Source: Halalkaliarchaeum desulfuricum (GTDB taxonomy: Archaea > Halobacteriota > Halobacteria > Halobacteriales > Haloferacaceae). From it: 64,000 nt of DNA. The stretch spans positions 868,001 through 932,000 of the forward strand of contig NZ_CP025066.1 in assembly GCF_002952775.1 (NCBI RefSeq). The letters run 5' to 3'. Shown here in pieces: positions 29,987 through 35,162 of the stretch. The notes beneath the pieces were generated by a model. That model was not told the origin of the DNA, did no database searches, and saw only the letters and a program-made list of their open reading frames with translations. The position numbers were made by a program, and so were the translations under genes. Positions within the stretch are counted from its first letter, which is position 1; every line of letters begins with the position of its first letter.

Positions 29987-30355
29987 TCAGGTGCCGGCGG
30001 AGGGCTCCCAGCCCGCATACCGGAGGAGTTCGAGGGCCCGGTCGGCCTTCGCGAGCAGCACCTCGCGGGTCGCCGGCAGCCGGCGTTCGGTGTACGTCGG
30101 TGGGAGCGCGAGCGTCCCGGTGGGAACGTCGTCGTCGCCGAGTACGGGGAAATGTCGCCCGTCGAGTTTCATGACCAGCGGCGCGTCGAGCCGTTCGAGA
30201 CCCTCGCCGGTCGCGTACAGCTGCTCGTTTACCCGCTCGTGATCCGCACGGTTGAGCACCGCATGATCGCCCTCGTGCGGTTCGACGTACATTTCCCCGA
30301 GGTAGTATCCGCTGGAAAATCGTTCGAACATACTGTGCAAGTTATTCTCACTCAT
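29987..30355 (-). CDS. Small conserved haloarchaeal protein (DUF5802-like)
   Basis: A 122-residue protein of unknown function that I associate from memory with DUF5802. Conserved-looking blocks: FERFSSGYYLGEMYVEPHEG, LYATGEGLERLDAPLVMKLD, HFPVLGDDDVPTGTLALP. There is no signal peptide, transmembrane helix or catalytic motif. The ATG at 30355 is preferred: the extra 29 residues of a longer frame overlap the promoter of the divergent regulator and are basic, unlike the rest. It lies about 40 bp upstream of the VLRF1 gene on the same strand, so co-transcription is plausible. Confidence 0.75.
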   Translation of the reverse strand: MSENNLHSMFERFSSGYYLGEMYVEPHEGDHAVLNRADHERVNEQLYATGEGLERLDAPLVMKLDGRHFPVLGDDDVPTGTLALPPTYTERRLPATREVLLAKADRALELLRYAGWEPSAGT

Positions 30356-30479
30356 GACCAGAGATAAAAGTTTCCGGGAACGTTTATATCGTCGCGCAAG
30401 TACGTCGCCGGAGTCGGGCGGACCGGCCACCATCGACGACAACGTATTTCATCCCGACTCCCGTAGTTTCGGTCGGTCG

Positions 30480-31340
30480 ATGGCTGCACACGACGACGTT
30501 CAGTATCTGGCCGGATCGCCGGTCCGCGCGAACATTCTCGCCGCCCTCTGCGAGGAGCCGCTCCGGCCGACACAACTGACCGACCGCGTGGACGCCACCA
30601 GAACGACTGTCCAGCGAATCCTCGCCGGATATCTGGACCGCGAGTGGGTGGTCAAGCGCGGACATCGGTACACGGTGACCGTCACCGGGCGGGGCGTGTA
30701 TCGCGCCTACGAGTCGCTGTGTGCAGACGTCGAACGGGCCAGCGAACTCGGGTCGTTCGCGTCCCATATCGGCCCGATCGCCGACGATCTCCCGTGGACC
30801 GCCCTCGAGAGTGCCGAGGTCACCGCCGCGAGCGACCGGGACCCGTTCTCGACGGTCCAGCGGCTGGTGGAACTCATCTCGACGGCCGACGCCGACCGCA
30901 TGCGCGCGATCACCCCAATCGTCGCCGAGGTGTTCAACGAGGCAGCCGCCGAGTTCATCGAGGGCGGCGGTCACCTCGAGTTGACGATAGACAGCGGCGT
31001 CCTGGAAGCGTCCCGGACCGGGTTTCCCGAGGCCGTCGATCGCGCCGTAGAGAACGGCGACGTCGAGGTCCGGGTTCATCCGGAACCGATCGGGTTCGGC
31101 CTGATGCTGTGTGAGGAGTGGGCCTGCCTTGGCGCGTACGACGACGAGAACAACGTCCGGGCCGTGATCGAATCCGACTCGTCGGAGCTGTTCGACTGGG
31201 CGAACGAACAGTACGGACGGTATCGATCTCGCACGAGACCGCTCGCGGAGGTACTCGAGGAACAGGCAGTGCGTTCACCAGATCGACCGGCCGACGAACG
31301 CCAGCGGCAAGACTCCACCTCCAGCGAACACCAGCGGTGA
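30480..31340 (+). CDS. HTH regulator, FilR1-type middle domain
   Basis: A 286-residue regulator. The N-terminal winged helix (residues ~5-75) reads VQYLAGSPVRANILAALCEE, LTDRVDATRTTVQRILAGYL. The following ~180 residues match the FilR1-type middle domain seen in methanogen and haloarchaeal regulators, with LELTIDSGVLEASRTGFPEA and the ligand-pocket-like IGFGLMLCEEWACLGAYD. The C-terminus is a charged tail. The target is unknown. The ATG 30480 follows a region with TATA-like elements around 30380, and the longer frame from 30354 overlaps the divergent gene start. It is followed by 272 bp without a gene. Confidence 0.8.
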   Translation: MAAHDDVQYLAGSPVRANILAALCEEPLRPTQLTDRVDATRTTVQRILAGYLDREWVVKRGHRYTVTVTGRGVYRAYESLCADVERASELGSFASHIGPIADDLPWTALESAEVTAASDRDPFSTVQRLVELISTADADRMRAITPIVAEVFNEAAAEFIEGGGHLELTIDSGVLEASRTGFPEAVDRAVENGDVEVRVHPEPIGFGLMLCEEWACLGAYDDENNVRAVIESDSSELFDWANEQYGRYRSRTRPLAEVLEEQAVRSPDRPADERQRQDSTSSEHQR

Positions 31341-32284: not shown

Positions 32285-32363
32285 CATATCGCCCCCTCCA
32301 CCGCCGTGACAACGCCCGGGGGTGCTCATTACTCCTCGCCGTGTACGCCTTCTGGAAAGAACG

Positions 32364-34244
32364 ATGTCTTCACAGACAGAGGGAGAGTACGAATTACCGG
32401 AGGATCGTCTCGAGGAGAGCCAGCCGCAGTGTCCGTTCGGCGTCGGGGGCGGCTGCTGCCGGATCTGTTACATGGGCCCGTGCCGGGTGACGGACGGCGC
32501 CCACGGGATGGATCGGGGGGTCTGCGGGGCGACGCCGGGGACCGTCGCCGCGCGGAACCTGTACCGCGAGATCGCCGCGGGGGCCGCAAGCCACGCCGAT
32601 CACGCACGCGAGATCGCCGAGGTGCTCGAAGAGATCGCCGACGGTGGGCTCTCTGCGTACGACATCCAGGATCCCGAGAAGCTGGAAGCGGTCGCAGCGG
32701 ATCTCGGGATCGAGGCCGAAACCGACGACGAAAACGAACTCGCGAAGCTCGTCGCCGAGGCCGCGATCGAGGACTTCCAGGGTGCAGGCGAGACACTCAA
32801 CTGGCTCGACCGGATGCCCGACGAGCAGCGGGAGTTCCTCGAAGAGCAGGGAATCCAGCCGAAACCGAGCGTCGACATGGAGGTGGCCCGGGCGATGCAC
32901 CGCACAACCCAGGGCAACGACGCCGACCCGGTCCACCTGCTTTCGGGTGCGCTGGAAGCAGGGATGGCCGACGGATACGCCGGCCTCACGATGGGGACGG
33001 ACCTCCAGGACGTCGTCTTCGGCCGGCCACAGCCGGTCGAGACCGAGGCGAACCTGGGGACGCTCGAAAAAGACCAGGTGAACATCGCGGTCCACGGCCA
33101 CTCGCCGGTGCTCAGCGAGATTATCGTCGAGATGGCCGAGGAACTGGAGCCGGCGGCCCGCGAGGCCGGCGCCGAGGGGATCAACCTCGTGGGGATCTGC
33201 TGTACGGGCAACGAACTGGCCGAGCGGCGAGGGATCCCGCTTGCGGCCCACAGCACCCAGGCCGAACTCGCGGTCACCACCGGCGCGCTCGACGCGATGG
33301 TCGCCGACATCCAGTGTATCTGGCCCGGCATCGGCGACGTGATCGAGTGTCATCACACGAAGCTTTTGACCACCACCGACTACGTGCGGATCCCCGGCGC
33401 AGAGCACGTCAGTTTCGATCCCGAAACTGCCGAGGCGGACGCCCGCGAGATCGTCCAGCGGGGGATCGACGCCTACGAGGACCGGAACAGCAGACAGGAG
33501 TACGACGTCGAGATCCCCGACGAGCGGGCCAGCGCGATGGTGGGCATCTCCGAGGACTACGTGCTGGAGGTGCTGGAGGCCGCCTCGCCCGAGGACCCGG
33601 TCGCGCCGGTCGTCGACGCGCTCGAGGCCGGCCAGCTGAAGGGAATCGTCGGGATCGTCGGCTGTCCGAACCCGAAACAACGCACCGCCGACATGACCGA
33701 GCGGCTGATCGAGGGGCTGCTCGCGGAGAACGTGCTGCCGATCGTCACCGGCTGCATCGGTCACGTCACCGCGCAGGCGGGCTATCTCGATCCCGCCCGG
33801 ACCGACGAGCTTGCGGGCGATGGGCTCTCGGAGGTGCTGCACGCGCTCGGTAACGCCGCTGGGCTCGACGGCCCGCTTCCGCCGGTGTGGCACATGGGTT
33901 CGTGTGTCGACAACTCCCGGATCGGCAACCTGGTTCGGGCGATCTCGGAGGGCGCCGACGTCCCCACGCGGGAGCTTCCAGTCGCCGCGAGCGCGCCGGA
34001 ACTCATCGCCGAGAAGGCAGTGAGCATCGGCGCCTGGGCGCTGACGCTGGGCCTGCCGGTCCACACCGCCCCGACGCTGCACATGGATCAAAGCGAGGAG
34101 GTGAGCCGGATCATGACCGAGGACCTGAAGGGGATCACCGGCGGCTACGCGATCCAGGAGGAGGATCCCGACGCCGCGATCGACGCGCTCGTGGCGGCGG
34201 TCGACGAACGCCGGCTGGCGCTGTTCGACGAGACTGGAGCGTGA
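32364..34244 (+). CDS. cooS: Anaerobic Ni,Fe carbon-monoxide dehydrogenase, catalytic subunit
   Basis: A 626-residue CooS that oxidises CO with water to CO2 or runs in reverse. Ligands can be placed by spacing against Carboxydothermus CODH-II: D-cluster Cys23 and Cys31; B-cluster Cys32, Cys35, Cys40 and Cys54; C-cluster His246, Cys280, Cys318, Cys434, Cys464 and Cys514; catalytic Lys551 (AEKAVSIG) and His77 (GAASHADH). All spacings match except a 3-residue gain between Cys318 and Cys434. Blocks GICCTGNEL, DIQCIWPGI, GIVGCPNPK and HMGSCVDNSRI are intact, so the enzyme should be active. This is not the aerobic Mo/Cu CoxL enzyme common in haloarchaea. It is followed after 6 bp by cooC. No ferredoxin subunit (cooF), hydrogenase or ACS gene is near. 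Composition matches its neighbours, so any transfer is not recent. Confidence 0.95.
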   Translation: MSSQTEGEYELPEDRLEESQPQCPFGVGGGCCRICYMGPCRVTDGAHGMDRGVCGATPGTVAARNLYREIAAGAASHADHAREIAEVLEEIADGGLSAYDIQDPEKLEAVAADLGIEAETDDENELAKLVAEAAIEDFQGAGETLNWLDRMPDEQREFLEEQGIQPKPSVDMEVARAMHRTTQGNDADPVHLLSGALEAGMADGYAGLTMGTDLQDVVFGRPQPVETEANLGTLEKDQVNIAVHGHSPVLSEIIVEMAEELEPAAREAGAEGINLVGICCTGNELAERRGIPLAAHSTQAELAVTTGALDAMVADIQCIWPGIGDVIECHHTKLLTTTDYVRIPGAEHVSFDPETAEADAREIVQRGIDAYEDRNSRQEYDVEIPDERASAMVGISEDYVLEVLEAASPEDPVAPVVDALEAGQLKGIVGIVGCPNPKQRTADMTERLIEGLLAENVLPIVTGCIGHVTAQAGYLDPARTDELAGDGLSEVLHALGNAAGLDGPLPPVWHMGSCVDNSRIGNLVRAISEGADVPTRELPVAASAPELIAEKAVSIGAWALTLGLPVHTAPTLHMDQSEEVSRIMTEDLKGITGGYAIQEEDPDAAIDALVAAVDERRLALFDETGA

Positions 34245-34250
34245 TATCGG

Positions 34251-35162
34251 ATGTGTGAAGAGTGCGGCTGTCACGACGGCGCGGGACACGCGCACGGTCA
34301 TCCCCACGGTCACGACCACGACCACGACCACGATCACGATCACGCCGATGTCGAAACCGAGTCGGCCGTCGACGCTCCGTTGCGGATCGCGGTGACCGGG
34401 AAGGGCGGCGTCGGGAAGACGACGCTGTCGGCGGCGCTTTCGACCCGGCTCGCGTCGGCAGACGACGTCGTCGCCGTCGACGCCGACCCCGACATGAACC
34501 TGGCGGCGACGATCGGCTGCGCGGAGCCGCCGCCGGTCACCGAAAAACGGGATCTCATCGAGGACCGGGCAGGCGGCGACGGGCTCGTGCGGCTCTCCCC
34601 CGACGTCGAGGACGTCCTCGAGAGCCACTCGACCCGATTCGGCGACGGGGACCGCGGTCGCCTGCTGACGATCGGCGCACCAGAGGGCGCGAACACGGGG
34701 TGTATGTGTGCCGAAAACAGCTTCGTCCAGTCGCTGGTCCGGTCGGCGCTCGACGCCGACTGCGCCGTGCTCGACATGGAGGCCGGCATCGAACACCTGG
34801 GTCGCGGGACCGCAGGCGACGTCGACGCGATGATCGTGGTCGTCGGCCCGTCGCAGTCGGCGGTGGAGACCGCAGAGGGGATTCGGGAACTGGCCACGGA
34901 GATGGGTGTCGAGGACGTGTACGCGGTCGTCAACCGGGTCCGCGGCGAGGAAGGCGAGACCGTCCGGGAGGCGCTGGCACTGCCAGTGCTGGAGACGGTA
35001 CCATACGACGAGGACGTTGCCGCGGCGGCGCTTTCGGGAAGGCCACCCGTCGAAGCCAGCGATCGACTGAACGTCGCGGCCGAACGGATTCTCCGGGGGA
35101 TCGAACGCCGGATCGACGGCGAGTCCTCCCCGTCGGCGCGTCCCGTCGAGGGCGACGACTGA
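34251..35162 (+). CDS. cooC: CooC nickel insertase with Cys/His-rich N-terminal nickel-binding extension
   Basis: A 303-residue P-loop ATPase that loads nickel into CooS. Residues 1-9 are MCEECGCHD (Cys2, Cys5, Cys7). Residues 8-31 hold 11 His, mostly in HD and HG pairs. This is the layout of HypB-type nickel-storage ends and the CooJ chaperone, not of standard CooC, which starts near the P-loop. The P-loop GKGGVGKTT is at 50-58 with the MinD/CooC signature Lys51. VDADPDMNLAATIG follows, and NTGCMCAENSF gives the CxC pair (Cys151, Cys153) that binds metal at the CooC dimer interface. Extension plus ATPase suggests insertase and nickel store in one chain. It starts 6 bp after cooS, so it is co-transcribed. 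Confidence 0.93.
   Translation: MCEECGCHDGAGHAHGHPHGHDHDHDHDHDHADVETESAVDAPLRIAVTGKGGVGKTTLSAALSTRLASADDVVAVDADPDMNLAATIGCAEPPPVTEKRDLIEDRAGGDGLVRLSPDVEDVLESHSTRFGDGDRGRLLTIGAPEGANTGCMCAENSFVQSLVRSALDADCAVLDMEAGIEHLGRGTAGDVDAMIVVVGPSQSAVETAEGIRELATEMGVEDVYAVVNRVRGEEGETVREALALPVLETVPYDEDVAAAALSGRPPVEASDRLNVAAERILRGIERRIDGESSPSARPVEGDD

Follow-up and report, generated by a model that had tools for sequence, protein, structure and literature searches.

A haloarchaeal CooC with a HypB-like, histidine-rich N-terminal arm: a probable nickel-insertion ATPase fused to a nickel-gathering extension

CooC, CooJ and CooT all aid the delivery of nickel to CODH, with an interplay that is still unsettled, and in CooC1 of C. 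hydrogenoformans a CxC motif forms a metal site at the dimer interface (PMC6006190). In E. coli HypB, Ni(II) is bound by Cys2, Cys5, Cys7 and the N-terminal amine (PMC7055735). A His-rich terminal stretch is found in nearly all UreG proteins from genomes that lack UreE (PMC2770081), and groups B-1 and B-3 of the clade B Ni-CODHs carry an HxH-rich terminal extension, which its describers likened to CooJ and HypB (PMC6344411). The principle of a His-rich fusion is thus already familiar from UreG, HypB and some CODHs (PMC2770081, PMC7055735, PMC6344411). We found no report in the open-licence literature of a His-rich tail on CooC or of haloarchaeal CooS maturation; the main text of a 2026 survey of CODH operons (PMC13056359) mentions neither histidine nor HypB and describes no tailed CooC.

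The window analysed here, a stretch of 64,000 nucleotides from Halalkaliarchaeum desulfuricum, contains cooS, the gene for the catalytic subunit of an anaerobic Ni-CODH (32367..34244, + strand; TIGR01702, 583 bits against a cut-off of 478). An alternative GTG start upstream, at 32322, is possible. CooS aligned to PDB entry 6elq with 594 bits, and the motifs VHGH, GICCTGNE, QCI, GC, TGC and GSCVDNSR, which we take to be the C-cluster ligands, are all present in the alignment. This enzyme is the presumed client of the CooC encoded directly downstream, and the order cooS–cooC is the same in 8 haloarchaea. No cooF, cooJ, cooT or hyp gene adjoins cooSC in the window. About 1 kb upstream of cooS lies a gene for a FilR1-type regulator (PF08350, HVO_A0261_N; 30354-31340, + strand), a possible candidate for its regulation; a peptidyl-prolyl isomerase gene is located between the two on the opposite strand.

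The cooC gene (34251..35162, + strand) follows the cooS stop codon at a distance of 6 nt and encodes a 303-residue MinD/Mrp-type ATPase with an N-terminal extension (PF01656, 63.9 bits). Judged by its sequence, this open reading frame is a complete CooC, combining the MinD/Mrp-type fold and deviant Walker A motif with a CxC pair and a genomic link to cooS. The core spans residues 44-303 and was mostly modelled by AlphaFold with a pLDDT above 90. CooC1 of C. hydrogenoformans (3kje) is both the closest solved structure by sequence (E 3.7e-36) and the top Foldseek match of the model (E 6e-18). The deviant Walker A motif GKGGVGKTT covers residues 50-58 (34398..34424, + strand), of which G50, K51, G52, G53, G55 and K56 are invariant in a 17-row alignment. 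In the same alignment, both cysteines of the CxC pair Cys151-Met-Cys153 (34701..34709, + strand) are invariant.

Residues 1-43 (34251..34379, + strand) form an extension that ordinary CooCs lack; in the alignment, tail-less proteins start at MK, immediately ahead of the common xAxTGKGG. The protein opens with MCEECGCHDGAGHAHGHPHGHDHDHDHDHDHADVETESAVDAPLRIAVTGKGGVGKTT, and its first 31 residues read MCEECGCHDGAGHAHGHPHGHDHDHDHDHDH. Three parts can be distinguished by direct reading and alignment. The cap MCEECGCH (34251..34274, + strand; Cys2, Cys5, Cys7 and His8) has the HypB-like form CxxCGC and recurs as MCxxCGxH in four haloarchaea. It is followed by a His-rich run at residues 13-31 (34287..34343, + strand), in which ten His alternate with other residues, and by an acidic linker at residues 32-43 (34344..34379, + strand). 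The whole extension is predicted to be disordered (AlphaFold pLDDT block means of 49-60). An earlier note on this DNA had reported Cys2, Cys5, Cys7 and 11 His within the first 31 residues, ahead of a complete CooC P-loop and CxC pair, and direct reading of the frame confirms each of these features. Against the 2.0% His background of the window, the binomial probability of at least 11 His in 31 residues is ~1e-11, a figure that overstates independence because part of the run is made up of an array of CACGAC hexamer repeats (34311-34344). Elsewhere in the window, called genes reach at most 4 His in a stretch of 31 residues. Given the CACGAC array, conservation is a stronger argument than the binomial.

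We therefore turn to the distribution of the arm. A profile search across 391 genomes of the host's class gave 15 with a CooC-family match, 8 of them linked to cooS. The tail, with MCxxCGxH and a His-rich segment, occurs in four of these 8: the genome of the window (G000), its sister species (G001; tail beginning MCEECGCHEGAGHDHDHPHDHDHD), G127 (MCDHCGNHQEPTHDHNQDYDHEHGHTHV) and G304 (MCDACGRHGDGNSHDGSNGSHGQDHREDHEHTHGHDH). These four haloarchaea span three genera and two families, so the tail is more than the peculiarity of a single genome. It is absent from the other four cooS-linked CooCs (G390, G272, G339 and G209) and from seven further haloarchaeal CooC-like ATPases, a separate group that does not adjoin cooS where the neighbourhood was read. 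Beyond the class, CooC matches were obtained in 197 of 295 genomes of the phylum, 30 of 296 genomes of the Spirochaetota and 24 of 142 genomes from the class of an Aminicenantes genome; among the matches listed with at least 286 aa plus the best 30, no Cys/His arm was seen in any of the three sets. We examined about 110 CooC-family ORFs from archaea and bacteria, none of them tailed. Bacillota, Desulfobacterota and Pseudomonadota were covered by an exact-peptide scan only, and a plasmid collection yielded one weak CooC match.

The tail is thus rare among the CooCs sampled, and the prospect raised in the earlier note, that it might prove common in known CooCs, did not materialise. Its suggestion that the fused tail could compensate for weak nickel affinity in a high-salt cytosol is unsupported: four other haloarchaeal cooS-linked CooCs, half of the total, do without a tail, so the argument fails, and we rejected the tail as an adaptation to high salt shared by haloarchaeal CooCs. 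The CooC and CooS trees each require one change of tail state, with the tail-less haloarchaeal set forming a supported clade. Such trees would be consistent with either one gain in the tailed lineage or one loss in the tail-less lineage.

The seven CooC-like ATPases that are not of the cooS-linked type have the Walker A sequence GKGGSGKTT, keep the CxC pair and are tail-less. Their loci include L027:2737-13139 (G095) as well as L020-L022, L028, L029, L036-L039 and L048. In L027 and L048, the two clusters read gene by gene, the ATPase sits with [NiFe]-hydrogenase subunits. The cluster in G095 contains confirmed HypD, HypE and HypF, together with a hydrogenase large subunit that has both CxxC motifs. 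No protein of these seven genomes passed the family cut-off for HypA or for HypB, and the CooC-like ATPase may do the work of the two there.

The earlier note had called the tail of the cooS-linked CooC "HypB/CooJ-like". The first half of this description holds by virtue of the MCxxCGC cap, while only a generic HxH richness is shared with CooJ. The caps read MCEECGC in G000 and G001, MCDHCGN in G127 and MCDACGR in G304, so that MC, CG and His8 are kept in all four and position 7 is Cys, Cys, Asn and Arg, respectively. In two of the four, G000 and G001, the cap corresponds position for position to the high-affinity nickel site of E. coli HypB. Since Cys7 is replaced in the other two, the HypB site is not preserved in full across the group; a cap with three cysteines, as noted earlier, is a feature of this protein but its third Cys is not one of the tailed group. 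The octapeptide MCEECGCH also opens a genuine HypB from a Lentisphaerae MAG (L017; TIGR00073, 246 bits), recovered by the exact-peptide scan, in which a His-rich run likewise follows. The HypB prefix model NF053667 (HypB_prefix_1) scored 20.6 bits with CooC residues 1-33 and 28.0 bits with the isolated G001 tail, both below its curated cut-off of 30, and convergence between the tail and the HypB prefix is possible. Searching Pfam with the tails alone yielded nothing informative, and the G3E GTPase domain of HypB (TIGR00073) was not matched in the tailed CooC protein.

The genome of the window has a HypB of its own at G000:619411-620046 (L023). The MCxxCG cap is absent from the haloarchaeal HypBs examined (L023 and L049-L054), including those of tailed genomes, and borrowing of the tail from HypB of the same genome was rejected on this ground. 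An HRFGHxxH patch lies inside most of these HypBs, and the C-terminus of several is His-rich.

The analysis shows the order of the genes, the intact motifs of CooC and CooS, the arm's conservation and a prediction of disorder for it. We consider it likely that this CooC serves the Ni-CODH encoded just upstream as its nickel-insertion ATPase and that its N-terminal fusion is an arm for gathering nickel. The tail would most likely act as a tethered buffer of nickel during CODH maturation; we infer that the metal is nickel, and likewise its binding, its stoichiometry and the steps of its transfer. In the cap, MCxxCG(C)H, the donors of a HypB-type site in this genome would be the N-terminal amine, Cys2, Cys5 and Cys7, and the flexible HxH run of variable length could hold several further ions weakly. 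The disordered arm would thereby scavenge and buffer Ni(II), raise its local concentration and hand it to the CxC pair, located where two CooC subunits meet in an ATP-dependent manner, for delivery to apo-CooS.

Binding by HxH runs and Cys-rich caps extends to several transition metals. Metal specificity is not readable from sequence, and the arm could be a general metal buffer for zinc, cobalt or excess nickel that rides on CooC instead of supplying CODH. We regard this as unlikely, although it is the most serious of the alternatives. The arm occurs on a CooC dedicated to CODH and is missing from the seven CooC-like ATPases that are not beside cooS, and it bears a HypB-type cap instead of a plain His tract.

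The His run might also be neutral low-complexity sequence, generated by repeat slippage and devoid of function. Repeats are evident in both members of the sister pair: to the CACGAC array of G000 corresponds, in the G001 tail (L025:8507-8617), a perfect 24-mer DNA repeat of 4.6 copies with 100% match, which codes for HDHDHPHD, and the two tails differ in length by 20 residues. As read from its DNA, the G001 His run appears to have grown through this repeat, and length variation between strains is likely. Slippage alone is nevertheless an improbable account of the arm, since the cap is conserved across genera and the G127 and G304 tails are His-rich by mixed codons, without any repeat. The tails contain 11, 20, 8 and 10 His in 44, 64, 49 and 58 residues (G000, G001, G127 and G304, respectively), while the cores of the same proteins have 1-4 His each per ~250 residues. 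Neither the G127 tail, whose cooC lies in a region of 47% GC, nor the G304 tail is a simple repeat, so His richness persists through changes of sequence.

A further alternative, which we consider very improbable and slightly more so than slippage, is that the arm is a docking segment for HypA/HypB, through which CODH would draw on nickel from the hydrogenase machinery. HypA and HypB are both present in three of the tailed genomes (G000, G001 and G127). However, G304 keeps the arm with neither protein above the family cut-off, and all four tail-less cooS-linked genomes possess HypA and HypB.

Finally, the extension could be an untranslated start-site artefact, as the tail-less CooCs begin right at the core, but this was rejected: ATG 34251 is the sole start upstream of the P-loop strand, with an in-frame TGA two codons 5' of it and the next candidate starts, at residues 44 and 48, at the edge of that strand, so the extension is translated if the gene is; likewise, the first start in G001, G127 and G304 is the ATG of the tail, and none other precedes the core.

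The tethered nickel buffer, the most economical reading, gains support from genomic context. CooT is absent from all 8 cooS-linked haloarchaeal genomes, and no His-rich, CooJ-like gene lies beside cooSC in any of them apart from the tail itself; other flagged His-rich frames there were judged spurious, being short or overlapping cooS or cooC in other frames. With HypA and HypB missing from G304 as well, the arm could fill an empty role. Conversely, CooC function as such does not depend on the arm, since four related CooCs manage with no arm, no CooT and no nearby His-rich gene. More tentatively, and with rather less than even confidence, we propose a self-sufficient CODH maturase, in which one chain would gather, store and insert nickel, replacing the help of CooJ, CooT and HypA/HypB, and in which the arm would have been assembled on a CooC in haloarchaea, independently of the HypBs of these genomes. 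If true, and considered together with the CooC-like ATPases of hydrogenase clusters whose genomes lack HypA and HypB, this would mean that CooC-type ATPases serve nickel insertion more widely than is assumed at present.

Since the arm of this natural fusion is well delimited and can be deleted, and close relatives lack it, the system offers a clean test of the coupling between nickel storage and insertion. CooC would join HypB and UreG among the insertases that have acquired a nickel-binding tail, putative in the present case, and the cap would represent a compact design for making active CODH at low nickel.

In comparison with known systems, the protein shares its whole ATPase core, Walker A motif, CxC pair and operon with cooS with CooC1 of C. 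hydrogenoformans and the CooC family (COG3640), from which it differs by the N-terminal extension, missing in CooC1 and in every CooC examined outside the four haloarchaea. HypBs with CxxCGC, a His-rich N-terminus or both (E. coli type; NF053667) have the same arm design, in which MCxxCGC opens the protein and a His-rich segment comes next; their core, however, is a G3E GTPase, not a MinD-type ATPase, and the third Cys of their cap is missing in two of the four tailed CooCs. CooJ of Rhodospirillum rubrum is His-rich and tied to CODH maturation as well, but it is a separate protein of 12.6 kDa with its His region in the C-terminal domain and no described CxxCG cap (PMC6006190), whereas here an N-terminal tail continues in frame into CooC. 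The clade B CODHs of groups B-1 and B-3 place an HxH-rich terminal extension within a CODH system, yet on the catalytic subunit instead of on CooC (PMC6344411). By analogy, the closest precedent would be the His-tailed UreG of genomes without UreE, which unites an insertase NTPase and a His-rich stretch in one chain (PMC2770081), although UreG is a GTPase of the G3E family and serves the urease pathway.
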